From Spongiibacter thalassae (GTDB taxonomy: Bacteria; Pseudomonadota; Gammaproteobacteria; Pseudomonadales; Spongiibacteraceae): a stretch of 64,000 bases of DNA. The notes under the pieces were generated by a model. That model was not told where the DNA came from. It did no database searches and worked only from the letters and a program-made list of their open reading frames with translations. Positions within the stretch are counted from its first letter, which is position 1. Every line of letters starts with the position of its first letter. A program made the translations under genes and the position numbers. The DNA lies in NCBI RefSeq assembly GCF_012272835.1, contig NZ_JAAWWK010000001.1, positions 62,001 through 126,000 of the forward strand. The letters run 5' to 3'. Positions 15,378 through 44,017 of the stretch are shown here, piece by piece.

Positions 15378-16754
15378 ATGTTAGTTGAAAATATACCGCA
15401 ATCTTCAGAAATTCCAGGTCCAAGAGGCTTGCCTTTTATTGGCGTTATCCCGCGCTTTCTTCAAGAGCCGCTGGCCTTATTTGAGGATGCGGTCAGGAAA
15501 TATGGGCAGGTATTTAAGCTTCCTTTGGGGGGCAAGGAGATTGTCTTCCTGAATGACCCGAGTGATATCGAAAATGTACTGAGGCTTGATTTTAGATCCT
15601 ACGGGCAGTCTGCTACCCACGAGGATCTGCTCGCGCCTTTGCTCGGTCGTGGCGTCGCTTCAGTGTCAGATCATGCCTATTGGGAGCAGCTCCACAGAAT
15701 ACTTTTGCCTGCTTTTACACCTAAAATGTTGAAAAAATATTTTGAGCAAACTGCGCTTGTTATTCAGTCCGAAGTCGACCATCTTGAAGAGTTGCGTTTA
15801 GCGGATTCGAATGTTGAACTTTATGAGTTTGTGCGTTTGGGAATATTCACGGCCCTTACGAAAACTCTGTTTGTGCGCGGCATTGAGAGTGATGAAATTC
15901 CTGGCATCTTGGAATTGTTTCTGTCGTCTAACAATTATATCAATGCCCGTTATCTTACCAATGCATCGCGTTTTACGGCGATATTGCCGGCCATACGGAA
16001 AGGGCGGCGTGACCTGAAGAAAATCGATAAACGGGTTTATGAGTTGATAGCCTATCGAAAGGAAAATCGAGTTGAAGAGGCGGAAGATATGCTCGATACC
16101 CTGTTGGAGGCAAGGTTTAGCGACGGTACAGCTTTAAGCGATGTAGAATTGCGGGACAATATCACATCGCTCTTCTTTGGTGGCCAAGAAACGACGCCAA
16201 GTGAAGTAACTTGGGCTTTTGGCTTATTGGCAGCTAATCCTGATAAACGCCAGATCATGCTTAACGAAATCGATGAGGTGCTTGCCGACCGTATTCCGAC
16301 ATTCGATGACCTGAGTAAGCTTGTTTACACCGGTATGGTGTTTGACGAGGCTATGCGACTTTACCCGGCTTTTAGTTTTTTGGCGCGAGAAGCGTTGATT
16401 GATACAACTATACGTGGCTACAGTGTGAAAAAAGGTACGCCTATCGCGTTTCCGGGGTGGACAATTCATCGCAACGAGGATTATTGGCCGGATTCGGAGA
16501 AGTTTCTCCCAGAGCGTCATGCTAAAGAAATAAGTCGTAAGCGCGCTAAATGCTCATTTATGTCATTTGGCTATGGTCAGCGTCGTTGTATTGGTGAGCG
16601 AGTGGCTAGAATGGAGAGCACGCTGATGTTGGCGATGGTGTCCCAAAGATTTTTGCTTGAGCACGCCGACGGCAGGCTGCCGGACCCCCGCGTACAGATG
16701 TCGATTAAGCCGGTAGGAAAAATGCCGATGAAAATTATTAAGCGGTATAGGTGA
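15378..16754 (+). CDS. Cytochrome P450 (CYP4/CYP102-like, eukaryote-type layout)
   Basis: The 458-residue P450 begins with the proline-rich IPGPRGLPFIG segment and lacks a membrane anchor. It has GGQETTPSE in the I helix (about 268-276), EAMR (324-327), a PERF-like FLPER, and the haem loop FGYGQRRCIG with Cys404. Such class-E P450s hydroxylate fatty acids, alkanes or terpenoids. It is quite different from the two other P450s in the window. Start ATG 15378 has a strong GGAGG site, lying just outside the IS5 right end, so its promoter may come from or be disrupted by the IS. Confidence 0.92.
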   Translation: MLVENIPQSSEIPGPRGLPFIGVIPRFLQEPLALFEDAVRKYGQVFKLPLGGKEIVFLNDPSDIENVLRLDFRSYGQSATHEDLLAPLLGRGVASVSDHAYWEQLHRILLPAFTPKMLKKYFEQTALVIQSEVDHLEELRLADSNVELYEFVRLGIFTALTKTLFVRGIESDEIPGILELFLSSNNYINARYLTNASRFTAILPAIRKGRRDLKKIDKRVYELIAYRKENRVEEAEDMLDTLLEARFSDGTALSDVELRDNITSLFFGGQETTPSEVTWAFGLLAANPDKRQIMLNEIDEVLADRIPTFDDLSKLVYTGMVFDEAMRLYPAFSFLAREALIDTTIRGYSVKKGTPIAFPGWTIHRNEDYWPDSEKFLPERHAKEISRKRAKCSFMSFGYGQRRCIGERVARMESTLMLAMVSQRFLLEHADGRLPDPRVQMSIKPVGKMPMKIIKRYR

Positions 16755-17635
16755 GTAGATCGTTAAAAATTCATGTACTTCGTCAGCTTGCGATCAGCTG
16801 AGTTTGGTGAATAAAGCTTTTATCGAGATATAGCTTCCGCTCTCAATGGATAAGGAGCTGAGGCGCTGTCTGTATTAGATTTTTTTAGAAACTGTTCACA
16901 ATAATTCCTATAAATCGCCGGACGGATATTACAAAGCAATAATTCAAAATTATCGAACTCTAGTTCCCAATTCTGCGTGGCAACGTGAAAATTTCTAACC
17001 TGCAAGTGTTTAACGCAGTGTTGTAAGTCGCCGACCGCGGGTGCAAGTGGCGCGGTTTGCCGAAAAAGTTTGGCCGCTGGCTGAGTATTTATATGTGCGC
17101 GGGAATCGCTGGGCTACAGCAAAGTTTTCTGGATACCGTGTTTCTTGCTCTTCAGGGGAGTGATGTTATCTATCGTGAGGACAAACATCGATGTTCAGAT
17201 AGAGCCCCGTCGGCAAATTTATTGGAGCCAGAGCGCTGAATGCTTATCAGCAGGGGGCGTTACCGTCAGCTGGCAAAGAAAAGCTGGAATGCTGCTGTTT
17301 CATATAACTGTCGCAAAGGATTGGCCATATTTAGTGGGTGTGGGAGCACGTGCGAGCTCCTTTTGGTTGCGATTTATGCGGTCTATTAGTTGAAAATATG
17401 GTCGCGATATAGATGTGTCAGTCACGTTGTTATTTTTTTGCATTATAATTGTGTATAATATGAATGCATGGTATTGTGGGTTCAAGTGGGCTGTTTTAAG
17501 AGTTGATGTGGGCTGACCGTGCGCGACCTGTGCTTCGCACTTGGTGGAGCCGTTGGGGTCATTGCATGAAAATTTAGGTCACAGAGTTTTGTAATTACGC
17601 GGAAAATATTTTTCTATAATAAGGAGTAGTGCTCA
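16755..17635. other. Long intergenic region, no gene recognised
   Basis: About 880 bp without a convincing gene; short frames on both strands lack family features or ribosome-binding sites. An inverted repeat ATTATA/TATAAT lies at 17442-17459 in AT-rich sequence. The 3' end carries AAGGAG for the next gene. The stretch may hold decayed DNA and the promoter of the following kinase-like gene. Confidence 0.4.
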
Positions 17636-18700
17636 ATGAGTGATATGTCTAGCGCAATGGATGAGGCGGTGGCCGCAGCGAAATCTAATTATGCCGTTAT
17701 TGATAATAAAAAGCTTAAGGTATTTTTGGGAAAAATATTTGAGGCGGATGTAAATATTTTGCAGGTGCAAGGTGGTGCAGAAAAGTCAGGGTCATCCTCG
17801 GGGATACTGATTTTCGACGCTGCAATCGAACATGAGGAGGGCCAAGAGCTCAAAAAGCTGGTGCTGCGTTACGACCCTGAAAGTAATGATCGATTGTTTT
17901 TTGAATATGATCTGGAAAGCCAGTACGTACTAATAAAGAAGCTGCAAGACAGTGGCCTGCCACTCCCGAAGGTTTACGGTATAGATGTGAGTGGTGATTG
18001 TCTGGGGGTCTCAGGGTTTATTATGGATTGCGTTGTTGGCTTGCCAATACCGACATCGTTATTTGCCAGTGGTCCATTGGTTGAAGCTAGCGATGAGCAG
18101 CGCGAAAATATATATCAGCAAATACTTGGCACGCTCGTTTCAATACATTCGCTTGATCTTGCTGAGTTTGGGTTGGCCGATTATACAAAAATAGCGCCTG
18201 GTGATACAGCGCAGGAAAAGCTTATAAATTGGTGGTGGAAAACATGGGATTGGGCAAAGCCCGAGGGCTTTGAGCGATTAGTGCCCGTTCGCCAGTGGCT
18301 ACTTGATAATGCCCCAGTAGAAAACAATATGGTGTTAATGCATGGGGATCCAAATTTAGGCAACTATATGCTCGACAACGGGAAAGTTACGGCTATTTTG
18401 GATTGGGAGTTGTCAAGTATTGGTAGTCCTGAGCTGGACTTGGCGATACAGGTATTGTCGATGGAAGCGCATATGCCATATGCCGATCAGTTACCTGTAA
18501 CCCCGCCGACTCAGGAACAGTGGTTGTCGTATTACTATGAGGCTGGCGGTCGACCGCTGAAAAATTTCGACTATTTTCGCAAGCAGGCGGCATACCAAAT
18601 TTTAGTTTGCTTGGGTTCTATGTGTAATTATTTACCTGAAAGCGTATCAGCGTCATATAAGGTGATGGCGGAATTTTATTGGGCTGAAGTTGAAGGTTGA
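17636..18700 (+). CDS. Phosphotransferase family protein (APH/ACAD10-11 N-domain type)
   Basis: The 354-residue aminoglycoside-phosphotransferase-fold kinase has the catalytic loop HGDPNLGN (about 236-243) and metal-binding DWE (256-258) within the segment AILDWELSSIGSPELDLA. This subgroup accompanies acyl-CoA dehydrogenases, and ACAD10/ACAD11 and LvaA homologues phosphorylate 4-hydroxyacyl-CoA. It is more likely metabolic than a resistance gene, given the P450/dehydrogenase neighbourhood. Start ATG 17636 has a strong AAGGAG site. Confidence 0.88.
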   Translation: MSDMSSAMDEAVAAAKSNYAVIDNKKLKVFLGKIFEADVNILQVQGGAEKSGSSSGILIFDAAIEHEEGQELKKLVLRYDPESNDRLFFEYDLESQYVLIKKLQDSGLPLPKVYGIDVSGDCLGVSGFIMDCVVGLPIPTSLFASGPLVEASDEQRENIYQQILGTLVSIHSLDLAEFGLADYTKIAPGDTAQEKLINWWWKTWDWAKPEGFERLVPVRQWLLDNAPVENNMVLMHGDPNLGNYMLDNGKVTAILDWELSSIGSPELDLAIQVLSMEAHMPYADQLPVTPPTQEQWLSYYYEAGGRPLKNFDYFRKQAAYQILVCLGSMCNYLPESVSASYKVMAEFYWAEVEG

Positions 18701-18830
18701 GAGCTGCTGATTCTAATAGTTATATTGGGTGAGATCATTATTTTTAATAGTAACTGGATAATATAATTAATCTGGAAGGTCGATTGTATTAGAAATGCTT
18801 TATTTTTAATAATAATATTTTGGATTAGCG

Positions 18831-20318
18831 ATGAAAGACGTACTCATTATAGGCGCTAGTATTTCTGGACTTTCAGCGGCATTGGCCTTTCAGGCCAAAG
18901 GCTTCAAGGTCACCGTTATCGAAAGTGATTCCGCGCCAAATTCAGATATTACTCCTGCCGATGCTTGGTCTTGGCGTCGCAGGGGAGTTGCGCATGCGAT
19001 GCAGCCACATTTTTTTCTAAGTGGATTGCGTAATTATCTTGCTGATTTATACCCAGGCTTACTAAAGGATTTTATCGAGGCAGGTGTAGAGCAAATATCG
19101 CTCAGCCAATGCATTCATTCATCGGCGGCTCACCGCTATAAGGCCAAGGATAACGACGCAGACCTCACTTTTTTTGCAGCGAGGCGCAGTGCATTTGAGT
19201 TGGTTATGTATCGTTACGTTGAGCGTCAGGAAAATATTCAGTTACTCCCCGATGTAAGAGTGAAAGAATTGCTGTTCGATGGGACTCGCGCTCCCTTTAC
19301 AGTTAAGGCGTGCTTGGCTGCATCCGCTGGAGAAATAAAGCGGTACGATGCCGATTACGTTGTCGATGCGTCTGGTCGCACCACAAACTTAATAAAGCCT
19401 ATATGTCAGGCTGGTGCGATTGTTGATGATTTTACGTATAAATCAAAGTCAGCTTACTACACCCGTCATTATCGGCTTTTACCAGGTCAAGAAGCACCTG
19501 AATTTATCGGAATGCCGAGCGCTATGTTCGATGACATCGTCGTGGTGACCTTTATAGCTGATAATAGAAATTTTGTTATTTCGATAGTGGTGAATCAAGA
19601 TGATCCACTTCTATACGGGAATTCAATGAGCGATACCACAGTGTTTGAGGAAATTGTTCGTCGAATTCCGAAGGCTTCGCGTTGGATCGAATCGAGCCGA
19701 GCTGAGCCAACGTCGAGTGTCATTGCGTGGGCAAATATGGACTTTTTCTGGCGATCATTGGTCAGCGCTGAACAGCCCCAAATACTCGGCTATTTTCCGG
19801 TGGGTGATACCATGGTGCGGAGCAACCCAAAATTTGGCCGAGGTTGCACATGGGCGGTGATGGGCTCACATATTCTTGCGGAGAGTATTGCTGCGGGTGG
19901 TGATGTGTCAGAGATGACCCTTCGTTACGAGCGCAGTATAAACCAATATTTTAGAAGTGATTGGGAAGTCATGTTACAAGTTGATAAAGACGACCAAATG
20001 CGATTTGAAAGAGCAGTTGGATTGCGTCGCAGAACATTGTTATCTGGATTATACGCAAAATTTACCGGTTTAACTTCAAATGTCGCTGTCTCGGTCGATC
20101 CTGAGTTGTACAGGGAAGTCGTACGCGGTTTTTACGGTTTAACTTCTCCTACGGCGTGGTTAAAGAAGCCAAGTAACTGGTTTCGAATTCTAAAATCGGT
20201 GTTTATGCCAAGTGAATCGAAACGGCTTGCTATTGCTTATTCAAAGCGTCCCAGTCGATCAGAAATGGAAAGAATAATAAATAATTGTAGAGCTAGCGTC
20301 AACGTTGGAGAACTATGA
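18831..20318 (+). CDS. FAD-dependent oxidoreductase/monooxygenase-like flavoprotein
   Basis: The 495-residue protein has an N-terminal FAD-binding Rossmann motif (IIGASISGLSAALAF, about 6-20) followed by an acidic ESD. A GD-type motif (FPVGDTMVRSNPKFGRGCTWA) lies near residues 322-342. This layout belongs to the geranylgeranyl-reductase / squalene-epoxidase / flavin-monooxygenase superfamily, but the substrate is unknown. The next gene overlaps its stop by 4 bp (ATGA), so the two are translationally coupled. Confidence 0.8.
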   Translation: MKDVLIIGASISGLSAALAFQAKGFKVTVIESDSAPNSDITPADAWSWRRRGVAHAMQPHFFLSGLRNYLADLYPGLLKDFIEAGVEQISLSQCIHSSAAHRYKAKDNDADLTFFAARRSAFELVMYRYVERQENIQLLPDVRVKELLFDGTRAPFTVKACLAASAGEIKRYDADYVVDASGRTTNLIKPICQAGAIVDDFTYKSKSAYYTRHYRLLPGQEAPEFIGMPSAMFDDIVVVTFIADNRNFVISIVVNQDDPLLYGNSMSDTTVFEEIVRRIPKASRWIESSRAEPTSSVIAWANMDFFWRSLVSAEQPQILGYFPVGDTMVRSNPKFGRGCTWAVMGSHILAESIAAGGDVSEMTLRYERSINQYFRSDWEVMLQVDKDDQMRFERAVGLRRRTLLSGLYAKFTGLTSNVAVSVDPELYREVVRGFYGLTSPTAWLKKPSNWFRILKSVFMPSESKRLAIAYSKRPSRSEMERIINNCRASVNVGEL

Positions 20319-20704
20319 TGCCAAGTTATTCTTCATTGTTAAATGATAATAAAGGTAAATCGAATTCTGGCACCTTGCTGGTGATTTATTGCATAACGGC
20401 TGTATTAAGCGTGTCGTATTATTTTGGAGTCGCGTGGATTAAAAGCGGCATCGCTGCGACTATTCCTCAATTTCTCGATGCGTCAGTAGAGTATTTATGG
20501 GTGCGAGGTGTCTTGGTCGATTTCTTAATGTTTAATACATTTATTTCCATATGGTTATTCTATCGAGAAAAAACATTATTAGGTGGTGCGCTAACAACGC
20601 TCCTGTTTTGGGCATCCGGATCGATTTTCCTTGGATTATATATAGCCTTGTTGTGGCTTAAATATGGGTCTATGAAGTCCATATTGTTAGGCAGGAATGC
20701 ATAG
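20315..20704 (+). CDS. Small integral membrane protein, possibly DUF1475-like
   Basis: The 129-residue protein has about three hydrophobic helices (roughly 20-40, 66-85, 90-115), with a short YREK loop between the second and third. It resembles small DUF1475/DUF2834-type membrane proteins, but I am not sure of the family. Its ATG overlaps the stop of the upstream flavoprotein gene, implying a linked function such as membrane anchoring or electron delivery (inference). It ends before a terminator-like hairpin. Confidence 0.65.
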   Translation: MMPSYSSLLNDNKGKSNSGTLLVIYCITAVLSVSYYFGVAWIKSGIAATIPQFLDASVEYLWVRGVLVDFLMFNTFISIWLFYREKTLLGGALTTLLFWASGSIFLGLYIALLWLKYGSMKSILLGRNA

Positions 20705-20739
20705 AATAGTTTCGGTAAGTTAAATGAGAATTTTTTGCC

Positions 20740-20760
20740 GTTCTCGCCGTTTCCGAGAAC
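20740..20760 (+). terminator. Terminator-like hairpin
   Basis: GTTCTCG and CGAGAAC form a 7-bp stem with a 7-nt loop. TTT follows and TTTTTT precedes it. It lies 36 bp after the small membrane protein gene. Confidence 0.5.
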
Positions 20761-20823: not shown

Positions 20824-20872
20824 CAATAGAGTGGCGCAGTATTTCCTAAGTGTGAAAATGGAGATGAAATTA

Positions 20873-21868
20873 ATGAATTACGATGTTTCTTGGGACAAGC
20901 CCCATCAAGCGGTGGATGATGTACTTTGGCAGGAGAGTGATGCGTACTGGTTTTACGATACGGAGCAAGGTATTGGTGGCTTTCATCGTATAGGGCAGAA
21001 GCCGAAATTGGGTAAGGGGCAGCTTACGCTTTTTGTATTTAAAACCGGTGCTCAGCGTTTTGTTATGAGTGATGGCGACCGTACTGAGAAAGAGCTCACA
21101 TCAGCTGCGCGTCAGGAATCCAAACAAGTTGTCGGGGGGCATACAGCAGAGGCTTTGGGCGATGCTCGAATGCGCTTTACATGGGAGGAGCCCGAAACAT
21201 CTGCAGATCTTGAATTTTACGAGGCATTTTATGAGCCACGCGATTGGTCTAAGTCTGGTCATTCCAAAGATTTTATGAGTAATATTAATTCCGACGGACA
21301 TTTAGAATGCTCAGGAAAAATTCGCGGCGTAATTCGTATTGGTGATAGCTCATATAATATTGACGCGCTAGCACACAGGGATCGTTCCTGGGGTGTGCGC
21401 GATAACGCTCGAGTTTCTATGCATCGCTACCGAATGTTTAGCGGCACAGTAGGACCTGAGATGAGTTTTGCTTGTTTCCTACTGGATTTAAAAGGAGGCC
21501 AGAAGATGGTTGCTGGCTTTGCTAAAGTTGAGGGGCAAGATTATGACGTGCATGACCTCCGCGTAATCACGCTTTTAGACAGCGATGGGCTAACCCCTCT
21601 GAAATCAATCGGAATATTGACTCTGGAAAGTGGCGAAGAACTGAGGATTGAAACGACTTCAGTCCAAGGGTTTATTACACCTGTGAGGGAGGCTTATTCC
21701 GTTAGTCAAGATCATATATCGACCTTTATATATAAAGATAAAATTGGCTTCATGGATCTTGAGCTTTGCATGAATCCAGGCAGGGGTGATTATATACCTA
21801 CTAAAGATGATGTTACTTTCGTAGCCGTAGAGCAGGGGTTGTCTGGATTTAGTCAGTACGAGTACTGA
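20873..21868 (+). CDS. AttH/CrtC-like lipocalin-fold protein (DUF7064/7065 type)
   Basis: The protein has about 331 residues from the preferred ATG 20873, which has GGAG 9 nt upstream; GTG 20831 would add 14 residues. It shows the motif HRDRSWGVRD in the middle, with strands on either side, as in proteins related to hydroxyneurosporene synthase (CrtC) and AttH. CrtC hydrates isoprenoid double bonds, while most relatives have no known reaction. A paralogue with RDKSWGPRD lies at the window end. It sits between a flavoprotein and a TonB receptor, so a role in handling a hydrophobic isoprenoid-like ligand is plausible. Confidence 0.72.
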   Translation: MNYDVSWDKPHQAVDDVLWQESDAYWFYDTEQGIGGFHRIGQKPKLGKGQLTLFVFKTGAQRFVMSDGDRTEKELTSAARQESKQVVGGHTAEALGDARMRFTWEEPETSADLEFYEAFYEPRDWSKSGHSKDFMSNINSDGHLECSGKIRGVIRIGDSSYNIDALAHRDRSWGVRDNARVSMHRYRMFSGTVGPEMSFACFLLDLKGGQKMVAGFAKVEGQDYDVHDLRVITLLDSDGLTPLKSIGILTLESGEELRIETTSVQGFITPVREAYSVSQDHISTFIYKDKIGFMDLELCMNPGRGDYIPTKDDVTFVAVEQGLSGFSQYEY

Positions 21869-22027
21869 TTCATTATTCGTAATTTAAAAAGTTTAAAGCA
21901 GATAATAATTGCCGAGATGGCAGCGCTATGACTACGACGTAGCGCCAACCTAGGCTTGGATAAATAGATGTTGTTTTGCTTTCGTGCGGTATTCAAATTA
22001 TTAATTAGTAGCAAGGAAGGAAATAGT

Positions 22028-24277
22028 ATGAGAAGTAGTATTATGTCGAGAACATGTCCGGCCTCTGCATTTGTTGCAGTTATAGCGTTGGGGATACAGG
22101 GAGTCTATGGCGCTGGACTTGCCCTGGAAGAGGTTATAGTAACTGCACAAAAACGCGAACAAGGACTTTCAGACCTGAGTGCTTCAATATCCGTAGTGGG
22201 TGGTGAAGATCTAGGATTTCGTGATATTTCGAATGCGTCAGACATTTCACAATCGGTGCCCAATTTACAGTATGGCAACGTCGCTGGCGCGTCGCAAATA
22301 ACTATTCGTGGCATAGGTTTAAACGTCGAAACGGGGTTTGCGGAACCGGCTGTAGCGGTACACATCGATGGAGTATATTTAGGTCGAGCCAATGGTGCTG
22401 CACTAGGCTTGTCTGATCTAGCCGCAGTAGAAGTATTGCGTGGTCCTCAAGGCACGCTTTACGGCCGAAATGCGACCGGAGGGGTGATAAATTTTATAAC
22501 GAATAAGCCTACCCAGGAATTTGAAGGCGAGATCAGTGCGGGTGTCGCGTCTTTTGGCGGTGTTAGTGGCCGAGGGTATTTGTCCGGTCCGTTTAGTGAT
22601 AAATTTCGGGGAAGAGTATTTGTTGAATATGAAGATGGCGATGGGCATATAAAAAACGGTTTTACCGGTGAATCAGAAGGTGGAGTAGAAGCAACGACAA
22701 TAAAGGGAAGCTTGAGTTACGATTTGACAGAAACTTTAACATCTGACTTGTCTTACTTGCTTATAAATCAAAATTGGCATGGTCCAACTTTTGAAAAAGT
22801 CGTTCCCGGTGGCTTTGCTTCTATACAGGGCGTGGGGTACGATTCCAGACCAAATCATGTACGTAACAATGTCGACCCAAGTTCGGATATCGATATGCAA
22901 GTTGCCTCGCTTAGCTTGGACTGGGTAAAGGATAATTTCACGCTACGATCGATAACGGGTTATAGTAAGTTTGAGCGCCTTGATCTGATAGATGGTGAAG
23001 CAACGGCGCTGGATTATTTAGTCAGTAGCCGAGACGAAAATTCTGAGGCATTTTCGCAGGAATTAAACTTTAGCGGTAGCTACGACGATTTCGTTGATTG
23101 GATTGCAGGTGCGTATGCCTTTCACGAAGAAAGCTATGCGCTGACAGATGTAGTGACAGGCGAATACAAAGGTGGTCCAGCTCTCGCATTTGCGATGGGT
23201 GCAGGAGAGTACGGTGTCGAGAACCCAAATGATTTACTTTCGGATCCCGCATTCGTAGCAGACTTCGCTACGTGGTCTTCTGATCCCGCTAACGCGGCAT
23301 TTCTTGCCGTACCTGCATTTAACTCGTTAGCGTATAATAGGCTGATTGAGCAAGTAGATGTCCTCGGATTTTTCTCAGATGCTACGGTTCATTTTTCCGA
23401 GCAGACGCGTGTTAAGGCTGGAATACGCTATAGTGAAGAAAAGAAAAAGGGAAATCAGTCGGTGATTAATTTCGATGGTGCATTGACGCTATGTGATGAT
23501 TTGGATTCTGAGATTTCATTTTATGACGTTTCGCCAAAGCTCGTATTTGAGAATAATATTACGCATGGTTCTATGCTATATGCGCAGTATCAGCAAGGAT
23601 TCAAATCTGGTGGATACAATCAGTCTGGCTGCGAAGCTTTCGAGCCAGAAGAGGTTGTCGCTTATGAGGCTGGGTTAAAAAGTAAGTTGATTGACGACCG
23701 GCTATTTGTTGCAATCGCCGCATTTACCTACGATTACACTAATCTCCAAGTGCTGCTTATAAGGGATTTTGTCGGTTATGTAGAAAACGCAGCTGACTCT
23801 ACAATAAACGGAATTGAAATTGAGTCTAAGTTTGCGGTCACAGAAAATATCGCAATTGATTTTTCCGCTTCTTGGCTAGATGCGACATACGGTAATTTCG
23901 TTGATTCAGACGGCTCCGATTACGCAGGAAATCGACTGAGCCGGTCACCGGAGTATACGGCGTTTGGCGGCTTGGATTATACGCTTCCGCTCAGTTTCTA
24001 TAATATTGAAGAGCTTCGTTTAAGAGCTGAAGCATATTGGTCAGATGACGTATATTTCCGGCCATCAAATACGGATAATGATAAACAAGAAAGTTATGCA
24101 GTATATAATGCATATGCTTCTATATATGGTGCGCAATCGCGATATCATATAGGTGCATTTGTTAAAAATATAACCGATGAAGAATACTTGGAAAGTGTTA
24201 TTAAATTGGCAGATGGACTCGACGGGCACTATTCGCTACCGAGAACATGGGGAATTGAAATGAGTGTTAAATTTTGA
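22028..24277 (+). CDS. TonB-dependent outer-membrane receptor
   Basis: This receptor has about 749 residues from ATG 22028, which follows an AAGGAAGGAAA site; the open frame upstream to 21968 lacks support. It has a signal peptide (VAVIALGIQGVYGAG), a TonB-box-like EEVIVTAQKRE, a plug with VPNLQYG, RGIGLNVETG, VHIDGVYLGR and VEVLRGPQGTLYGRNATGG, a 22-strand barrel, and a C-terminal Phe. It would import a large or scarce substrate using TonB energy. The next TonB receptor is closely similar in the plug. Both lie within the P450/dehydrogenase locus, suggesting its substrate enters here. Confidence 0.93.
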   Translation: MRSSIMSRTCPASAFVAVIALGIQGVYGAGLALEEVIVTAQKREQGLSDLSASISVVGGEDLGFRDISNASDISQSVPNLQYGNVAGASQITIRGIGLNVETGFAEPAVAVHIDGVYLGRANGAALGLSDLAAVEVLRGPQGTLYGRNATGGVINFITNKPTQEFEGEISAGVASFGGVSGRGYLSGPFSDKFRGRVFVEYEDGDGHIKNGFTGESEGGVEATTIKGSLSYDLTETLTSDLSYLLINQNWHGPTFEKVVPGGFASIQGVGYDSRPNHVRNNVDPSSDIDMQVASLSLDWVKDNFTLRSITGYSKFERLDLIDGEATALDYLVSSRDENSEAFSQELNFSGSYDDFVDWIAGAYAFHEESYALTDVVTGEYKGGPALAFAMGAGEYGVENPNDLLSDPAFVADFATWSSDPANAAFLAVPAFNSLAYNRLIEQVDVLGFFSDATVHFSEQTRVKAGIRYSEEKKKGNQSVINFDGALTLCDDLDSEISFYDVSPKLVFENNITHGSMLYAQYQQGFKSGGYNQSGCEAFEPEEVVAYEAGLKSKLIDDRLFVAIAAFTYDYTNLQVLLIRDFVGYVENAADSTINGIEIESKFAVTENIAIDFSASWLDATYGNFVDSDGSDYAGNRLSRSPEYTAFGGLDYTLPLSFYNIEELRLRAEAYWSDDVYFRPSNTDNDKQESYAVYNAYASIYGAQSRYHIGAFVKNITDEEYLESVIKLADGLDGHYSLPRTWGIEMSVKF

Positions 24278-24492: not shown

Positions 24493-25233
24493 TTATGCCG
24501 CCTGTTCAGCAAATGCAACAGGTGGCAAATAGTCCAGAGAGCTGTGGGGGCGCACATGGTTGTAGTGGTGCCTCCACTGCTTGATCTCTGCCTTGGCTTC
24601 TTCCATTGATCTAAACCAGTGACGGTTCAAGCATTCGTTTCTGAATTTTCCATTCAAGCTTTCAACGAAAGCATTCTGTGTCGGTTTTCCCGGCTGTATG
24701 AATCCAAGCTTTACGCCTGATTCCTGACTCCAGAAGAACATGGCCTTGCTGGTAAATTCGGTGCCGTTGTCGCAGATAATCGTATTCGGTTTGCCGCGAG
24801 TCTCGATTAGCTGACCAAGAAAGCGAGCGACTTGCCGACCACTAATCGATACGGAAACCAGCCGCCCAACCATCTCCCGGGAATAATCATCAACAATATT
24901 CAGTACCCGAAAGCGCCGCCCATTGCTCAATTGATCTGACACAAAGTCCATCGACCATCGTTGATTGATACCTAAAGGCACTTCCATTGGCTGACGTGGA
25001 CGCTGTAGTTTCCTTCGCTTCTTGGTGCGCACTTGCAGCCCTTCTTCGGTGTAAATCCGATAAGTACGCTTTCTATTAATAACCAACCCTTCGGCCTTAA
25101 GAAGGCCATGCAGCAACAAATAGCCATAGGCTGTGCGACTGATGCCCACTAACCGGCAAGCCGATCGCTCACTGATACGATGCTCTGAGATCATATGCCT
25201 GGCTATCTGCTTGCGACCGGCGGACTTCACCAC
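24493..25233 (-). pseudogene. IS3-family OrfB transposase with in-frame deletion
   Basis: The DDE integrase-core frame has 246 residues and shows SMDFVSDQ, VDDYSRE, CDNGTEFTSKAMFFW, KPTQNAFVESLNGKFRNECL and YNHVRPHSSL, so the D-D-E residues are present. After GISRTAY about 30 residues of the usual HTH/linker region are missing and the sequence resumes at GYLLLHGLL. The likely expression route is -1 frameshifting from orfA at the A6G run (25233-25239). With orfA truncated, the element is probably inactive. Confidence 0.8.
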
Positions 25234-27910: not shown

Positions 27911-28020
27911 AACGAGCTAGTAATTTAAGCTTTACTTATACGAATGAGTTGGCGAATAGACGATTTTGGTATTGTATTTTCGCTATCCTTGACTCAATTT
28001 TAGTTACTTAGGTGATAAAA

Positions 28021-33818: not shown

Positions 33819-33955
33819 GTTGGGCAAGTCTGCCGCATGTATGCTTTTTTGCCGCGGAAATTCTAATATAAAAATTAATAAATTCGCGTGAACGTGAGTA
33901 GATATTGGCGCCATTCAACCTGTATCAATTGCCTGTATGGGAGCAAGCAAAATAT

Positions 33956-36991: not shown

Positions 36992-38194
36992 ATGGAAGGG
37001 ATCAGCGGAAGTGCAAAGGGTGCACTAAATGGTGTAAAGGTCGTCGACTTAAGCACGGTCGTGTTTGGGCCCTACGGCAGTCAAATATTAGGCGACCTTG
37101 GTGCAGAAGTGATAAAAGTCGAAGGTGGTCGGGGAGATAATATGCGATTGCCAGGGAATTCTCCTGTTCCTGGAATGGGGCCGCTTTACCTTGCGCTGAA
37201 TAGAAACAAAAAATCTATCACGCTTGAACTTAAAAGGCCAAGTGCGCTTGCGGCGATGAAAAAACTTATTGAAGGCGCCGACGTTTTCTATACCAATGTA
37301 AGAATGGCAGGGTTGGAAAGGCTCGGGCTTGGTTATGAACAGGTTAAAGCAATAAATCCTGGAGTTGTCTATGTCCACTGTACAGGCTTTGGCACTGAAG
37401 GAGCTTATGGGGGGAAACTCGCGTATGACGATGTGGTTCAGGCAGCGTCAGGGTTTTCCGATCTCTTACCCAGAGTGGACGGCAACGACGCACCTCGTTA
37501 TGTACCTTCTTTGATCGCGGATAAAACGGCAGGTCTGCATGCGGCTTACGCGACAATGGCGGGTCTTTTTCATAAGCAACGAACCGGTGAAGGACAGTTT
37601 ATCGAAGTGCCAATGTTTGAAACCTTCACTTCTTTCCATATGATCGAAAATCTCTATGACCATTCATTTGTGCCGCCTCGGGGTAATATCGCCTACGATC
37701 GCTCTATCGACCCAAATCGTCGTCCTTTTAAGACATTGGACGGGTACATATCTATAGTTCCCTACGCGCCAGAACATTGGCAAATAATTATGGATTTTGG
37801 CGGCATAGATAATATTCTGGAGGACGAACGCTTTAATTCGTTTGAAAAGCGGACGAAGAATACAGGTATATTATATGGAATGGTAGAAGATATTACTAAG
37901 ACAAAAACCACGGATGAATGGGTCGAGCTAATGGACGAAGCAGGACTGCCGTGTATGAGAGTAAACCGAATGGAGGAGGTGTTGGATGACAAGCACTTGC
38001 AAGAGGTCTCGTTCTTTCAAAAGAGAAATCACCCAGTCATTGGTGAGTACTTGAATATTCGGCACCCGGTCAAGTTTAGCGTAACTCCTGCATCAACTCG
38101 CAATGATGCTCCTAGTTTGGGCGAACATAATGAAGAAATATTAGGGGGACTTGGGTATTCACACGAGGAAATTTCTGAAATACAGGGTAAATAA
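36992..38194 (+). CDS. CaiB/BaiF (family III) CoA-transferase
   Basis: The 400-residue protein begins with GVKVVDLSTVVFGPYGSQILGDLGAEVIKVE, the classical CoA-binding start of family III enzymes. It continues with NRNKKSITLELK and the active-site region LAYDDVVQAASGFSD, where the catalytic Asp lies. Family members transfer CoA between acids or racemise 2-methylacyl-CoA (AMACR). In a pathway for branched isoprenoid chains either role fits. Start ATG 36992. Confidence 0.9.
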   Translation: MEGISGSAKGALNGVKVVDLSTVVFGPYGSQILGDLGAEVIKVEGGRGDNMRLPGNSPVPGMGPLYLALNRNKKSITLELKRPSALAAMKKLIEGADVFYTNVRMAGLERLGLGYEQVKAINPGVVYVHCTGFGTEGAYGGKLAYDDVVQAASGFSDLLPRVDGNDAPRYVPSLIADKTAGLHAAYATMAGLFHKQRTGEGQFIEVPMFETFTSFHMIENLYDHSFVPPRGNIAYDRSIDPNRRPFKTLDGYISIVPYAPEHWQIIMDFGGIDNILEDERFNSFEKRTKNTGILYGMVEDITKTKTTDEWVELMDEAGLPCMRVNRMEEVLDDKHLQEVSFFQKRNHPVIGEYLNIRHPVKFSVTPASTRNDAPSLGEHNEEILGGLGYSHEEISEIQGK

Positions 38195-38610: not shown

Positions 38611-39585
38611 TTGAAGACTCGCATTACTGAAATGTTGGGAATAAAGTATCCGATTATACAAGGTGGGATGATGTGGGTCGGTCGAGCGGAACTGGCCGCG
38701 GCAGTTTCAAATGCCGGTGGGCTAGGGATTTTAACGGCGTTAACTCAGCCTACACCTGACGCTTTACGACAAGAGATCGTTCGCTGCCGCGAAATGACTG
38801 ACAAGCCGTTTGGGGTGAACATCACGCTATTGCCGTCAATAAATCCTCCTCCTTATGATGAGTACGCGCAGGCGGCGGTAGAAAGCGGTATAAAGGTAAT
38901 AGAAACCGCAGGTCGCAGTCCGGAAAAATATATGCCCTATTTCAAGAAAAATGGGGTCAAGGTGATTCATAAATGTACATCTGTACGTCACGCGTTAAAA
39001 GCGGAGCGGATAGGGTGTGACGCTGTAAGTGTAGATGGTTTCGAATGTGCGGGACACCCGGGAGAAGACGATGTGACCAACTTGGTTCTATTGCCTGCGG
39101 CATATGCGAAACTTAGCATTCCCATAGTTGCATCTGGTGGCATAGCCAACGGGCAGCAAATGGCTGCTGCTCTGGCGCTAGGCGCCGAAGGCGTAAATAT
39201 GGGGTCTAGATTCGTAGCGACGAAAGAGGCGCCGGTTCATCAGAACATGAAGCAAGCCATGGTTGATGCCGATGAGCTTCAAACAACCCTGATGTTCCGT
39301 ACATTAAAGAATACGGTGCGGGTGTTCAAAAATTCCATTTCTGAAAAAGTGGTAAAGATAGAGGCGCGAGAAGGGGAAACGGACTTCTCGGAGTTGCAGC
39401 CACTTGTAGCAGGTGTGCGCGGTCGTGAACGCTGTATTGAAGCAGGCGATATTGACGATGGTGTTTGGACTGTCGGTATGGTGATGGGACTGATTCAAGA
39501 TATTCCTAGTTGCGAAGAGCTAATTCAAAGAATGGTTAAAGATTGTAACGAAACAATTTCTTCCCGTCTCCGCGCCATGCTGTAA
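38611..39585 (+). CDS. Nitronate monooxygenase / FabK-like FMN enzyme
   Basis: The 324-residue TIM-barrel flavoprotein has YPIIQGGMMWVGRAELAAAVSNAGGLGIL at the start, VDGFECAGHPGEDD with the conserved His, and the FMN phosphate-binding ASGGIANGQQMAAALALGAEGVNMGSRF. The family includes nitronate monooxygenases and FabK-type enoyl reductases. In catabolic clusters like this one it may be an ene-reductase or dehydrogenase for a CoA ester. Start TTG 38611 with AAGAGG upstream. Confidence 0.85.
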   Translation: MKTRITEMLGIKYPIIQGGMMWVGRAELAAAVSNAGGLGILTALTQPTPDALRQEIVRCREMTDKPFGVNITLLPSINPPPYDEYAQAAVESGIKVIETAGRSPEKYMPYFKKNGVKVIHKCTSVRHALKAERIGCDAVSVDGFECAGHPGEDDVTNLVLLPAAYAKLSIPIVASGGIANGQQMAAALALGAEGVNMGSRFVATKEAPVHQNMKQAMVDADELQTTLMFRTLKNTVRVFKNSISEKVVKIEAREGETDFSELQPLVAGVRGRERCIEAGDIDDGVWTVGMVMGLIQDIPSCEELIQRMVKDCNETISSRLRAML

Positions 39586-39586
39586 G

Positions 39587-39602
39587 ACAGGTCCAGACCT
39601 GT
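39587..39602 (+). terminator. Short inverted repeat after the NMO-like gene
   Basis: ACAGGTC-CA-GACCTGT lies immediately after the stop codon. It could be a weak terminator or an operator; no T run follows. Confidence 0.35.
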
Positions 39603-39758
39603 TTGTCCAATGAATACATGCGGCTGTTACGCTAGCCGACGAAAATGTGAATGTTGGGAATTTCAACGAATACTAATAGCCATTTTATATGGTAGAAAGA
39701 TTCAGAAGTCGGTATCTATACAAGGCGTTTAAGAATACCAATTTACGGAGATTAATCG

Positions 39759-41324
39759 ATGAGAAAGTCATCCATCACTACTTTTGAAATGCTCGATTAT
39801 TTCGTGCGTATTAGCGGGGAGAAGCCCGCATTAAAACAAGACTCACGCCAACTAAGTTATGCTCAGTGGAACGAGCAAAGTTTGGTCGTTGCTAACGCGT
39901 TGGCGAAGTCGGGTATCGGTCCCGGAGACCGGGTAGCGGTTCTGACTTTTAATCGTATTGAGCAGTTCGTTATACTCTACGCGACTATGAAGCTTGGTGC
40001 GGTATATGTACCTGTTAACTATCGCCTGGCCCCTGCTGAATTCAAATACATTCTCAATCAGTCGGAGTCTAAGGCGATATTTATTGAAAGCGACGAGTTG
40101 ACCGAAAAAATTGAAAGTATTGCCGATGAAACGTCGTTGTCAACTTTTGTGCGTCTAGACGATAGCGAATCGCTTAATGGCCGTTGGCAATCATTTTCAA
40201 GCCTTATTTCGAAGCAAGACCAGACACCTGTTGATTTTGAGCCTAAGCCCGATACCCCTGTATATCAAATGTATACTTCTGGCACGACGGGTTTTCCGAA
40301 GGGTGTAATAGTCACGCAACAGCAATCCGCCGCGTTTGTGGTTCATTCTCTGTGGATTCCACCTAGAGTCGACGCGGGAAAGCCACACTTGGCCGTCGCG
40401 CCTATATTTCATGCAGGAGCATTATGTAGCAGTATTATGGCGCTGTGCGCGGGCCGACCAGTGCATATTTTAAAGGATTTCAATCCGCAAGTAGTAGTTG
40501 AAGAATTGGTTAAGGAAAAGATCGCCGATGTGATGTTAGTGCCCGCGATGCTGCACGCCATTTTGCAATACGTGCCAAATTTGCATCAATATGACTTTGG
40601 TCATCTGGAGAAAATTATTTACGGGGCGTCACCTATTACGGTTGACGTACTGGAGCGTTCCATGAAGGCCTTTGGCTGCTGCTTTCAACAGGGCTTCGGC
40701 ATGACTGAAACCGTAGCGTCAGCTACAGCTCTGACAGCCGATGATCACTTGAAAGCTATTAATGGTCGTCCGGAATTACTCCGATCTTGCGGTAGAGCGG
40801 GTTTGTTTGTAGACATTAAAATTGTAGATACGCTAAGTCGCCAGGAGCTACCTCAGGGTGAAATTGGTGAAATAGCAGTACGCGCTCCGCATGTAATGGA
40901 AGGCTATAGTAAACAGCCGGAAAAAACCGCGGAAGTATTGGATGAAGACGGCTGGTATTATTCTGGTGACGGTGGCTATATCGATCAAGATGGGTATGTT
41001 TTTATAAAGGATAGAATCAAGGATATGATTGTGTCTGGCGGCGAAAATGTATACCCCGCCGAAGTGGAAAACGTACTAATGTCTCATCCCGATATTATAG
41101 ATGTTGCTGTAATCGGCTTACCGGATGAAAAATTTGGCGAGGCGGTGGTTGCAATTTGTGTTGCATCACCGGATGCAGGCTTGGACCCGGCGAAGATGAT
41201 TGAATACTGTCGCGCGCATATTGCGGGCTACAAGATTCCGCGCCGCTATGAGAGGATTGAAACATTGCCTCGAAACCCCTCAGGGAAAATATTGAAGCGT
41301 GAGCTTCGAGATCAATTTTTGTGA
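39759..41324 (+). CDS. AMP-dependent acyl-CoA synthetase (FadD-like)
   Basis: The 521-residue ligase activates an acid to its CoA ester via an acyl-AMP. Visible motifs: the P-loop YTSGTTGFPKG (about 172-182), YGASPI, GFGMTE, YSGDGGYIDQDGYVFIKDRIKDMI, GGENVYPAEVE, and C-terminal PRNPSGKILKREL with the catalytic Lys. It probably follows the aldehyde dehydrogenases in the route. ATG 39759 has GGAG upstream. A second, related ligase is at 59.0 kb. Confidence 0.94.
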   Translation: MRKSSITTFEMLDYFVRISGEKPALKQDSRQLSYAQWNEQSLVVANALAKSGIGPGDRVAVLTFNRIEQFVILYATMKLGAVYVPVNYRLAPAEFKYILNQSESKAIFIESDELTEKIESIADETSLSTFVRLDDSESLNGRWQSFSSLISKQDQTPVDFEPKPDTPVYQMYTSGTTGFPKGVIVTQQQSAAFVVHSLWIPPRVDAGKPHLAVAPIFHAGALCSSIMALCAGRPVHILKDFNPQVVVEELVKEKIADVMLVPAMLHAILQYVPNLHQYDFGHLEKIIYGASPITVDVLERSMKAFGCCFQQGFGMTETVASATALTADDHLKAINGRPELLRSCGRAGLFVDIKIVDTLSRQELPQGEIGEIAVRAPHVMEGYSKQPEKTAEVLDEDGWYYSGDGGYIDQDGYVFIKDRIKDMIVSGGENVYPAEVENVLMSHPDIIDVAVIGLPDEKFGEAVVAICVASPDAGLDPAKMIEYCRAHIAGYKIPRRYERIETLPRNPSGKILKRELRDQFL

Positions 41325-41375
41325 TCTAAACTGTTAATAAATTGTCGTTGTAGTGCCAATTCAAAGAGACTCATT

Positions 41376-43163
41376 ATGTCTGTATACGAAGCCCCTGTCG
41401 AAGAGATATTATTCTCAATGTATGATGTTAATCAATTTGACTCACATTATGAAAGTTTTGATTTGGGCAAGGATGTAGTAACCGCTATTCTTAATGAAGC
41501 TGCCAAATTTGCTGAGCAAGATCTTTTTCCACTTAACGCAACCGGTGATCGTGAGGGTGTGAAATTTGTTGATGGATCGGTGTCTCCCCCATCCGGCTTT
41601 AAAGAAGCCTATAAGAAATACGTAGACGGCGGTTGGCCGTCACTCGCGCAGCCGGAACACTTCGGGGGGCAAGGATTACCCAGTTCTCTCTCTACAGTAA
41701 TTTTAGAGTTGTGGCAGTCAGCTAACCAAGCGTGGTGTATGTATTCTGCTTTGGGGGAGGGCGCATGTGAAACTTTGTTGGCTTATGGTAGCGACAACGA
41801 AAAATCACTTTACTTGCCAAAACTTATTAGTGGAACATGGACAGGAACGATGTGTTTGACAGAGGCACAGGCCGGTTCTGATCTTGGGCTGTTACGAACT
41901 AAAGCTGAGCCTGCCGATAATGGCAGTTACCGGATTTATGGTAGCAAAATATTTATTTCCTCTGGCGATCATGATCTATCGGAAAATATTGTGCATTTGG
42001 TGTTGGCTCGTTTGCCTGAAGCACCTGAAGGTAGTCGCGGAATTTCGTTGTTTGTAGTTCCAAAATATAAGGTTGCAGGTGATGGAAGCCTTGGGGAGCG
42101 AAACCAAGTTTATTGTGGCTCTGTAGAGCATAAGATGGGCCTAAAGGGTAGTGCAACTTGCGTAATGAACTTTGACGGCGCAGAAGGTTTTTTGCTCGGC
42201 CCGCCCAATCGCGGTTTGTCGTGCATGTTTACCTTCATCAACAAGTCCCGTTTAGGTGTTGCAGTACAAGGGCTGGCCCAAGCTGAAGGTGCTTACCAGA
42301 TGTCCTGTACATACGCTTCAGCTCGTCTGCAAGGACACTCGCCATGCAGCTCTTCTTCTCAGGGTCGGTATGCTGATCCCATTGCTGAACAGCCTGACGT
42401 TCAGCGAATGCTGCTAAGTCAACAGGTTTTTTGCGAAGGTGGACGGGTGCTTGCCCATTATTGCGCGAAGCTAGTTGATCAAAGTCATTCTAGCGATAAG
42501 AGCATAGCTTCATATGCCGGAGGCTTGTTGTCGCTGCTAACGCCGATCGCGAAAGGGTGCTTGTCAGAGTGGGGGTCGGAAGCATGTGATATTGGAATTC
42601 AGGTTTTCGGCGGGCACGGATATATTCAGGAATGGGGAATTGAACAGCGGTTACGGGATGTGAGAATTACTCGAATATATGAAGGTACCAATGGTATACA
42701 GGGGCTGGATTTGTTGGGTAGAAAAGTGCTTGCAGACGGTGGTGTTATATTAGAGCGTTATTTGAATGAAATTCTGGAATTTAGTGATGAGTGTAAGCCT
42801 ATTTCGAAATTAGCCTATCTGGCTGAGGCCATGCAAAAACGTGTTGCCGAGTGGCAAGCGCTAAATAAAGAGATATTCGCCCAGGCGGGAGGTAAGAAAG
42901 GGTATATTGAATCTATCTCGTTTGATTACCTAATGTATGCTGGCTATATAACATTGGCGTACCAATGGTTGCGTATAGCGAAGGCCTCAGCAGCACATTC
43001 ATCTCCCAGCATCACTATATGGAAGGGTCAAAAACTGAATGCAGCGCGCTTTTGCTTTTCTAATATACTACCCCGCTCAGCGGCGCACCGCGAAGCGATA
43101 AGGATTGGTAGTGATACTATACTGAATTCGGTGCTGGCCGAGCAGTCTGTAAATACGAATTAG
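41376..43163 (+). CDS. Long acyl-CoA dehydrogenase, DmdC/FadE5-like
   Basis: The 595-residue ACAD is longer than the classical 380-residue type and has the N- and C-terminal extensions of the DmdC (3-methylmercaptopropionyl-CoA) group. Motifs: EHFGGQGLP, MCLTEAQAGSDLG, YGSKIFISSGDHDLSENIVHLVLAR, the FGGHGYIQEW segment, and RITRIYEGTNGIQGLDLLGRK. It desaturates the CoA ester made by the upstream ligase, 51 bp away. Start ATG 41376. Confidence 0.93.
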   Translation: MSVYEAPVEEILFSMYDVNQFDSHYESFDLGKDVVTAILNEAAKFAEQDLFPLNATGDREGVKFVDGSVSPPSGFKEAYKKYVDGGWPSLAQPEHFGGQGLPSSLSTVILELWQSANQAWCMYSALGEGACETLLAYGSDNEKSLYLPKLISGTWTGTMCLTEAQAGSDLGLLRTKAEPADNGSYRIYGSKIFISSGDHDLSENIVHLVLARLPEAPEGSRGISLFVVPKYKVAGDGSLGERNQVYCGSVEHKMGLKGSATCVMNFDGAEGFLLGPPNRGLSCMFTFINKSRLGVAVQGLAQAEGAYQMSCTYASARLQGHSPCSSSSQGRYADPIAEQPDVQRMLLSQQVFCEGGRVLAHYCAKLVDQSHSSDKSIASYAGGLLSLLTPIAKGCLSEWGSEACDIGIQVFGGHGYIQEWGIEQRLRDVRITRIYEGTNGIQGLDLLGRKVLADGGVILERYLNEILEFSDECKPISKLAYLAEAMQKRVAEWQALNKEIFAQAGGKKGYIESISFDYLMYAGYITLAYQWLRIAKASAAHSSPSITIWKGQKLNAARFCFSNILPRSAAHREAIRIGSDTILNSVLAEQSVNTN

Positions 43164-43363
43164 GCTGACTTTTTAATAATAGCTTTATTATGTGTAATAT
43201 GTCGGTCGGTTAGTTTATTTATATTGTTCCCCGCAGGTAAAACTGAAGATGTCTTCAAGATTAATTGAGCAGGTGAGTGCCGTCCTTATGAAATTATTGC
43301 GGAAATTTAGGGGTGGTTTTTCAGTCGGGAAATTTTTCAGGCCTATTTAAAGGTGCGGGTTCT

Positions 43364-44017
43364 ATGAAGTTTATGGCTGTGCTGGTATTTTTTTTTGGGA
43401 TTGCCTTTGGTGATGCCTCCTTCGCGGACGATTGGCTTTTAAAGAAAGATGATGATGGCATAAAGGTTTTTACGAAATATATTCAAGGTAATGAGATTAC
43501 AAGTTATCTTGGAATTACTGAAATAAATTCACCCTTGATGTCTGTTGCGCATTTGATGCTTGATTTGGCGATCATGGAGGACTGGTTTCATTTGAGTTAC
43601 GGAATTAAAGGGATAGAAAATATTGATAAATCTCAACGTCTAATTTATATGCGGCAAAAGACACCTGTCATGATTGCCGACAGAGATATGATTGTACGGC
43701 AGAAAGTAAATGCGATTAGCGATAGCCTGGTAGTAATAGAGCTGAATGCGGTAGTAGGCATTTTGCCTGAGCAAAAAGGCTATGTTCGGATTCCATTGTT
43801 TCATGCAAAGTGGAGGCTAAGTCGCGTGGATGATCAATCCACTCTCGTTGAGTATAGCGGATTTGCGGAACCCGGCGGAAGTATACCTGTATGGTTGGCG
43901 AATAAGTTGGTTACGGAAGTGCCCTTTCAAACGTTAAGGAAATTGAGGAATCAAAGTTTTTCGTCTGCCGTAGGTTCCTTGAGCTTTCGAGTTATTCCTA
44001 GAGATGCTTCGCTGTAG
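43364..44017 (+). CDS. Exported START-domain lipid-binding protein
   Basis: The preferred start ATG 43364 (AGGTGCGG upstream) gives 217 residues with a clear signal peptide (AVLVFFFGIAFGDASFA before DDW). The rest fits a START/Bet-v1-like lipid-binding fold: WLLKKDDDGIKVFTK, DLAIMEDWFH, YMRQKTPVMIADRDMIVRQ, and KWRLSRVDDQSTLVEYSGFAEPGGSIPVWLANKL. START proteins bind sterols, phospholipids or other hydrophobic ligands, here in the periplasm. It could ferry substrate from the TonB receptor across the periplasm (inference). Confidence 0.82.
   Translation: MKFMAVLVFFFGIAFGDASFADDWLLKKDDDGIKVFTKYIQGNEITSYLGITEINSPLMSVAHLMLDLAIMEDWFHLSYGIKGIENIDKSQRLIYMRQKTPVMIADRDMIVRQKVNAISDSLVVIELNAVVGILPEQKGYVRIPLFHAKWRLSRVDDQSTLVEYSGFAEPGGSIPVWLANKLVTEVPFQTLRKLRNQSFSSAVGSLSFRVIPRDASL

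Follow-up and report, generated by a model that had tools for sequence, protein, structure and literature searches.

Among the described systems closest to the locus treated here are the hydratase-aldolase systems that remove steroid side chains, Shy-Sal, with the aldehyde dehydrogenase Sad, and ChsH1-ChsH2-Ltp2, in which a thiolase-fold protein with a tyrosine (in Sal also a cysteine) in a YDCY- or YDHF-type motif is coupled to a hydratase (PMC12329534). As far as the account of Sal in that paper goes, the catalytic pair of the bile-acid aldolase (CtSal) is Tyr302 and Cys304 of YDCY, Sal is complexed with a hydratase and was assayed in coupling with Sad, and an SLP carrying YDCF had been proposed as an aldolase (PMC12329534). 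MsTLP1, also of the thiolase fold, was described in a 2012 structure paper as having YSCF for its fingerprint instead of the thiolase motif, an extra C-terminal barrel, neither the nucleophilic cysteine nor thiolase activity, and a function that was left open (PMC3406046). The term "tlp1" does not occur in the text of the former paper, nor "aldol" in that of the latter, and in neither did we see TLP1 connected with Sal. In Spongiibacter thalassae, a TLP1 gene lies among 18 genes, not counting insertion sequences (IS), at positions 15378 to 44017 of a 64,000-nucleotide window that corresponds to positions 62001-126000 of the host contig NZ_JAAWWK010000001.1 (C1); positions without a contig prefix are those of the window. 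An earlier note, made from the sequence alone, had read this stretch as a candidate locus for the uptake and degradation of an isoprenoid- or sterol-like compound. We found the gene set to be the right-hand end of an island of about 82 kb and low guanine-plus-cytosine (GC) content at a tRNA-Pro gene (C1:24,110-106,261). Our reading, which we hold to be about evenly poised between right and wrong, is that the cargo at this end brings together, as a mosaic, catabolic modules with which a hydrophobic compound, probably branched or cyclic, would be imported and broken down.

Genomic islands associated with tRNA genes have a repeat of the tRNA 3′ end, a neighbouring integrase and a shift in GC content, and all three were found here. 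The tRNA-Pro(cgg) gene lies at C1:24047-24123, and its 3′ end, together with downstream DNA, recurs as attR (Table 1), which matched C1:24110-24268 with 88% identity over 159 columns (E 3e-55); none of the other matches listed from 21 family genomes ran more than 15 bases beyond the tRNA. Beside the tRNA, on the island side, a short open reading frame (ORF) matched Arm-DNA-bind_2 (4e-25) of a tyrosine integrase; since the next two ORFs, which precede a Cro/C1-type regulator, had no Pfam match, the integrase gene looks broken, and the island is therefore probably now fixed. The GC content was 0.437-0.492 in 5-kb bins of C1:25-105 kb, 0.511-0.584 in 14 sampled 20-kb stretches elsewhere in the host and 0.494-0.520 in three stretches of C9:335-395 kb. 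This island differs from others associated with tRNA genes in its broken integrase, in that no conjugation gene was recognised among the ORFs scanned, and in a possible tandem accretion: a fragment (C1:25908-26024) of the presumed integrase-remnant stretch, the ORF over this fragment having itself no Pfam match, recurs behind attR, so that a second island may be stacked behind the first at tRNA-Pro. Part of this fragment also has a 90% copy on contig C6.

The stretch previously proposed as a unit has, then, a real right edge at attR, whereas its left edge at 15378 merely coincides with an IS boundary within the island, which extends about 53 kb further left across debris of IS66 and DDE transposases. 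That part of the island contains a candidate hydratase (9485-10297), a cytochrome P450 (11428-12726) and, at its left end, a gene of the carotenoid-oxygenase family (RPE65; C1:27448-28917), the product of which is closest to the dioxygenase 5v2d and to lignostilbene dioxygenases; pairs of acyl-CoA dehydrogenases (ACADs) of the pimeloyl-CoA-dehydrogenase type and further P450s were found within the island and close to it. Beyond the RPE65-family gene come those of a TonB receptor and an RND pump.

Gene families were assigned with Pfam and NCBIfam to ORFs of at least 120 amino acids. The ORFs lie where the earlier note had placed them and the families it named were borne out; an APH-family kinase, an FAD oxidoreductase, a 129-aa ORF and an NMO/FabK-like flavoprotein had been left unlisted. 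The genes listed in the note lie on one strand, as it had stated, and all 18 genes are open and in the plus orientation; the one exception among the ORFs scanned in the stretch is the IS3-type transposase remnant that separates the two modules. The two TonB-dependent receptors (TBDTs) have PF00593 and PF07715 in both and are 33% identical, and the two aldehyde dehydrogenases (ALDHs), AldA and AldB, are 44% identical. The latter are CalB-like only by the annotation of homologues, namely calB (46%) on a plasmid of Sphingobium and a gene labelled "coniferyl aldehyde dehydrogenase" (40%) on one of P. aeruginosa; their top NCBIfam match is the benzaldehyde dehydrogenase MdlD, which scored below cut-off. 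A protein taken for CrtC/AttH-like was assigned by Pfam to DUF7065/DUF7064, and the START-domain protein, read before as exported, has a signal-like N-terminus, judged by eye. The genes gmc and cypB overlap by 11 bp (listed starts) and fadmo and the 129-aa ORF by 4 bp, and tlp1 and aldB are 2 bp apart. This tight spacing suggests shared transcripts among the closely packed genes; one single operon over the whole stretch is unlikely, because of gaps of 0.3-1.4 kb and the IS3-type remnant. Among the proteins scanned in the 15.4-44.0 kb stretch no steroid ring-opening enzyme of the KstD or Hsa type was recognised, as had been noted before, and no DUF35 protein was present. An Rfam scan of the window found no family, and promoter and terminator scans gave counts near those of shuffled sequence (34 versus 32.5, sd 6.2; 22 versus 18.3, sd 3.8).

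In the order of reactions that we infer, the substrate would be imported by the TonB receptors and oxidised by CypB and CypA, perhaps also by the MpaB-type enzyme; the GMC enzyme would yield an aldehyde and AldA the acid, from which FadD or the CaiB-family protein (Cai) would form the CoA ester. After desaturation by the ACAD, a hydratase encoded elsewhere, possibly the candidate in the left part of the island, would give a β-hydroxyacyl-CoA, which TLP1 would cleave by retro-aldol chemistry and so bypass a blocked β-oxidation position. AldB would oxidise the aldehyde released and Cai would re-activate the acid. The APH kinase and the DUF7064/7065 protein, as a separate pair, may phosphorylate a hydroxyl group and thereby activate it.

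All 30 sequences aligned (the window protein and 29 relatives) have the YSCF motif of TLP1 without variation, Y342 and C344 included, and at the level of the motif these two residues correspond to the catalytic Tyr and Cys of Sal in YDCY. The TLP1 profile aligned YSCF with the HDCF motif of the SCP2 thiolase 4bi9 and matched Sal at E 0.016. A predicted model of TLP1 (pLDDT 89.7) has the thiolase fold, with the TLP1 structure 4egv as its best structural match, followed by thiolases and TbSLP and, at rank 23, by Sal (9myr, E 4e-19). Among the loci examined, which were the best 80 of 194, TLP1 was fused to an enoyl-CoA hydratase (ECH) in 17, and a CaiB relative (47-51%) stood beside it in 10; locus L159 is a further case, with its CaiB split into two parts (56% and 35%). 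Both the hydratase fusions and the gene order tlp1-aldB-cai agree with a succession in which a hydratase is followed by an aldolase, then by an aldehyde dehydrogenase and then by re-activation with CoA. Where the assay of Sal uses Sad, aldB here directly follows tlp1, and the hydratase coupling of Shy-Sal may have its counterpart in the ECH fusions of relatives, as far as that system is described (PMC12329534). Several features set TLP1 apart: the motif is YSCF and not YDCY, the C-terminal β-barrel domain is in cis where Sal and Ltp2 have a separate DUF35 partner, the hydratase of TLP1 relatives is of the crotonase type (ECH) while Shy has a MaoC domain, the cluster in the window has no hydratase, and the retro-aldol activity of TLP1 is a proposal.

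We tentatively suggest, with somewhat less than even confidence and by analogy with Sal, that TLP1 proteins may be hydratase-coupled retro-aldolases in which the Tyr of YSCF would serve as base and the Cys as acid, with an OB-like barrel in cis and, in some members, a fused hydratase; in this locus TLP1 would take part in an undescribed pathway for the shortening of branched hydrophobic chains, and APH-DUF7064/7065 would provide a second undescribed activity, the phosphorylation-driven processing of a hydroxylated intermediate. We know of no measured activity of a TLP1 protein. If the aldolase proposal is true, it gives a function to a family found in sphingomonads, mycobacteria and the SAR92/Porticoccaceae gammaproteobacteria, and one way past blocked β-oxidation positions. 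Gene neighbours were dropped as general support for a link between TLP1 and hydratases, being mixed for the unfused members.

As to the substrate, uptake and degradation of a hydrophobic compound are well supported by the family content, and an isoprenoid or sterol, as first suggested, is possible and not singled out, given the matches to P450terp and P450tol, to 8b7s, to MdlD and to enzymes of the lignostilbene type. CypB had its best PDB match in P450terp (333 bits), with the P450tol monooxygenase nearly as near (301 bits); membership of CYP108 requires more than 40% identity to a named CYP108. The closest solved relative of the GMC protein is 8b7s, a chloramphenicol-inactivating oxidoreductase. 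CypA matched albaflavenone monooxygenase and pentalenene oxygenase in NCBIfam, both below cut-off, and its closest PDB structures are the eukaryotic LUT5 and CYP3A4. No relative of MpaB exceeded 34% identity, nor did any match extend over 80% of the protein; partial matches came from 10 of 95 relatives and 17 plasmid records, matches at E 1e-10 or better from 18 of 278 other genomes of a phylum sample, and none from a scan of named genomes, which detects close relatives only. The active-site residues of Lcp are Arg164, Thr168 and His198 in LcpK30 numbering (PMC5522427). In an alignment of MpaB with 21 relatives, R92 and H122 are kept and the Thr position is I96, if the mapping to Lcp numbers that we infer is right.

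A substrate of isoprenoid or sterol type with a blocked, methyl-branched chain would be a narrower form of our reading; it is plausible, and we put it a little below an even chance. P450terp as nearest solved relative of CypB, the presence of an MpaB/Lcp family member, a β-branch that the proposed TLP1 aldolase would solve, and the pimeloyl-CoA-dehydrogenase-type ACAD pairs and additional P450s in or near the island all point towards it; on the other hand, the region had no recognisable enzyme for acyclic terpenes or steroid rings, and MpaB is distant from the other members found and by alignment without the Thr of the Arg/Thr/His set. The nearness of CypB to P450tol, the MdlD top score of the ALDHs (below cut-off) with their matches to "coniferyl aldehyde dehydrogenase" genes, and the "Dioxygenase" and lignostilbene dioxygenases that are closest to the carotenoid-oxygenase-family protein of the island suggest instead an aryl-alkyl or phenylpropanoid-type compound, in which the P450 would hydroxylate an alkyl group on an aromatic compound and the GMC enzyme and CalB-like ALDHs would oxidise the alcohol and aldehyde so formed, before CoA activation and β-oxidation. 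This alternative conflicts neither with the island architecture nor with an aldolase role for TLP1, and aryl-alkyl compounds stay under consideration; we regard it as unlikely, as no aromatic-ring dioxygenase was found among the ORFs scanned and an aromatic substrate is not indicated by the MpaB, DUF7064 and TLP1 families. The order tbdtB-aldA-gmc resembles the TBDT-ALDH-GMC order of the sphingomonad peg operon for polyethylene glycol (PEG), and by that analogy a polyether or alcohol could be the substrate; two P450s, TLP1 and an ACAD would be unneeded for PEG, and a substrate of this kind is very improbable.

The mosaic reading of a branched or cyclic hydrophobic substrate also takes in the APH kinase, which, judged by gene neighbourhoods, forms a conserved pair with the DUF7064/7065 protein. 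Of 12 further DUF7065 loci (three from one genome, two from one genus), ten had an APH gene on the same strand within 1.6 kb, eight of these within 0.51 kb; the two others are L238, with only 2.6 kb on one side, and L242, where the DUF gene reaches the contig end. The DUF7064 profile was built from five proteins and the APH profile from seven, six of them DUF7064 neighbours, so that the APH search leans towards DUF7064-linked kinases. Control loci (80 TLP1, 14 GMC-set, 16 P450 and 13 host stretches) amounted to 2.25 Mb and contained nine APH matches, of which six fell in the P450 loci; DUF matches were absent. DUF7065 was found in one of 299 genomes of the phylum, the host itself with four copies, and in nine of 115 genomes of the order, host included. 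The single-chain predicted fold of the DUF7064/7065 protein was discarded (pLDDT 38.6). No paper naming DUF7064 or DUF7065 was found in the literature search (open-licence PMC papers). The kinases LvaA and ACAD10-ACAD11 belong to the APH superfamily. Since the kinases of the Lva and ACAD10/11 systems phosphorylate 4-hydroxyacyl-CoAs according to the account in PMC11342911, phosphorylation of a hydroxyl group by the APH protein is a reasonable guess here. The likeness would lie in a kinase of lipid-type catabolism beside ACADs (PMC11342911); the APH gene in this locus differs in being paired with DUF7064/7065 and not with an LvaC-type ACAD. The pairing offers a handle on an uncharacterised domain family. 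Separately, at the right end of the window, a DUF7064-like ORF (63343-63999, minus strand) lies beside the gene of an APH+DUF6285 protein (61874-63268, plus strand).

In the genomes and plasmids searched by sequence, the full gene set was conserved nowhere. An island-absence search with 18.5 kb of DNA from the right part against 20 family relatives and the host gave, among the matches listed from the relatives, partial ones only: long matches of 66-72% to nmo, one of 67% over 1.3 kb to acad, and short ones to pieces of tbdtB, aldA, gmc, tlp1, aldB, fadD and acad; mpaB, cypB and cai were not covered by any match listed from these 20 genomes. One congener (G007) has, across its 2.65-2.74 Mb stretch, homologues of the right-flank genes at 62-96% protein identity. 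No homologue of gmc or mpaB was found near TLP1 in the 80 loci, and those of the P450s and aph were few; in 16 P450 loci, gmc and mpaB were not found and tlp1 occurred once. Conservation of the whole set was accordingly rejected, only pairs recurring, and the scattering in relatives that had been named as a refutation of the locus is half borne out. A CalB-type ALDH stood directly beside GMC in four of the 13 GMC loci fetched, or five if one with a weaker ALDH is counted, and the sub-modules that recur are thus TLP1-CaiB, CalB-type ALDH with GMC, and APH kinase with DUF7064/7065. CypB homologues occurred in 142 of 397 other genomes of the phylum (best 46%), and in the class 48 of 368 further genomes had a GMC homologue with E of 1e-120 or lower (best about 50%); single genes being not rare, the presence of cypB or gmc alone says little.

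The nearest approach to the set was found on plasmids. In Croceicoccus marinus and Croceibacterium atlanticum, genes for GMC (38%), ALDH (31-32% over 74%), CaiB (31%), P450 and TBDT (28-30%) lie within about 11.4 kb; their P450s are 42-43% identical to CypB and 46-47% to the left-flank P450 of the window, and so nearer the latter. These plasmids differ in having also a Rieske oxygenase, a reductase, an MFS transporter and regulators, and no match to mpaB, tlp1, aph or DUF7064. The cluster common to these two Erythrobacteraceae plasmids reads TBDT-Rieske-reductase-MFS-GMC-ALDH-CaiB-P450-TBDT. A plasmid of Novosphingobium sp. EMRT-2 has within about 19 kb relatives of tlp1 (46%, ECH-fused), cai (51%), a P450 (47%), aph (27%), DUF7064 (30%) and a TBDT, in another gene order and with no match to gmc, ald or mpaB. 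A neighbourhood search for co-occurrence, as had been advised, thus gave conserved pairs and two plasmids with a similar GMC-ALDH-CaiB-P450-TBDT set, and the exact set nowhere. As had been claimed, no described pathway with this set came to light: the literature search found no paper describing it among open-licence PMC papers, as judged by title and start of abstract.

Several results weigh against the reading of this stretch as island cargo for one hydrophobic compound. With conservation lacking for any single set, it may be that the genes do not make up one pathway. The GC content right of the island (105-226 kb; 0.484-0.560) partly overlaps that within it, and no empty tRNA-Pro site was shown in relatives, which have the tRNA with other flanks. 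Neither a ferredoxin, nor a regulator, nor an enoyl-CoA hydratase was recognised in the 15.4-44.0 kb stretch among the ORFs scanned; no hydratase is fused to the TLP1 of the window or adjoins it there. In fold, TLP1 is no closer to Sal (rank 23) than to several thiolases, and the neighbours of unfused TLP1 genes are mixed (phosphatase, aminotransferase, amidase, thioesterase), with CoA-transferase III in five of 72 (72 of 124 neighbour ORFs were scanned, with the ORFs after fused genes left out). An acquired patchwork without a single pathway, its modules gathered by IS activity and island insertion and partly decaying, would accord with the IS66, DDE and IS3 remnants, the broken integrase, the duplicated integrase-region fragment and the want of a conserved set. 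We think it rather unlikely, for the 18 genes are open and co-oriented, and gmc/cypB overlap and tlp1/aldB are closely spaced. With the island, a list of catabolic genes becomes one bounded, acquired unit with testable biochemistry, and the region is of more interest for its island context and for two of its parts, TLP1 and APH-DUF7064/7065, than as a named pathway.

Table 1. Features of the window with their positions, strand and the matches or observations behind each assignment.
Feature	Position	Strand	Basis or remark
IS66 and DDE transposase remnants, left of cluster	13096-15232	+	ORF list, Pfam
cypA, cytochrome P450	15378-16754	+	PF00067 2e-81
aph, APH-family phosphotransferase (kinase)	17636-18700	+	PF01636 3e-22
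fadmo, FAD-dependent oxidoreductase	18831-20318	+	PF00890/PF01266
129-aa ORF	20315-20704	+	no Pfam or NCBIfam match; overlaps fadmo
DUF7065-DUF7064 protein	20831-21868	+	PF23213 2e-17, PF23212 3e-13
tbdtA, TonB-dependent receptor	21968-24277	+	PF00593, PF07715
IS3-type transposase remnant between two modules	24493-25233	-	NF033516 2e-63
tbdtB, TonB-dependent receptor	25637-27910	+	PF00593, PF07715
aldA, aldehyde dehydrogenase	28012-29466	+	PF00171 6e-79
gmc, GMC alcohol oxidase/dehydrogenase	29402-31063	+	PF00732/PF05199
cypB, cytochrome P450	31053-32372	+	closest P450terp, then 3tkt and P450tol
mpaB, divergent MpaB/Lcp-family oxygenase	32510-33601	+	PF09995 5e-26
tlp1, thiolase-like protein type 1	33905-35485	+	PF18313; 4egv
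tlp1 motif YSCF (listed-ORF residues 342-345)	34928-34939	+	invariant columns
aldB, aldehyde dehydrogenase	35488-36909	+	PF00171; starts 2 bp after tlp1
cai, CoA-transferase family III (CaiB)	36992-38194	+	PF02515 4e-100
nmo, NMO/FabK-like flavoprotein	38611-39585	+	PF03060
fadD, acyl-CoA (AMP) ligase	39759-41324	+	PF00501; NF004837 above cut-off
acad, 595-aa acyl-CoA dehydrogenase	41376-43163	+	closest structure: acyl-CoA dehydrogenase 8pns
START-domain protein, N-terminal signal-like stretch	43313-44017	+	PF01852 5e-6; signal judged by eye
attR, repeat of tRNA-Pro 3′ end and downstream DNA	44262-44409 (C1:106262-106409)	+	island right end
Copy of C1:25908-26024 (presumed integrase-remnant stretch)	45168-45284	+	83% over 117 bp

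Beyond the gene set, a wax-ester synthase/DGAT gene on the minus strand of the window (3372-4861) is split into two ORFs, one for the catalytic and one for the C-terminal domain, and may contain a frameshift. At 58999-63268, genes for a CoA ligase, an ACAD-like protein and the APH+DUF6285 protein are strongly conserved (72-96% protein identity); they are duplicated in the host (C9:384.8-389.1 kb) and occur also in the congener G007 (2.708-2.712 Mb of its own contig C1). Further dense regions of ACAD, ECH, SDR, TLP1, CaiB and TonB-receptor genes were observed in the host at C9:335-395 kb and C1:106-226 kb.

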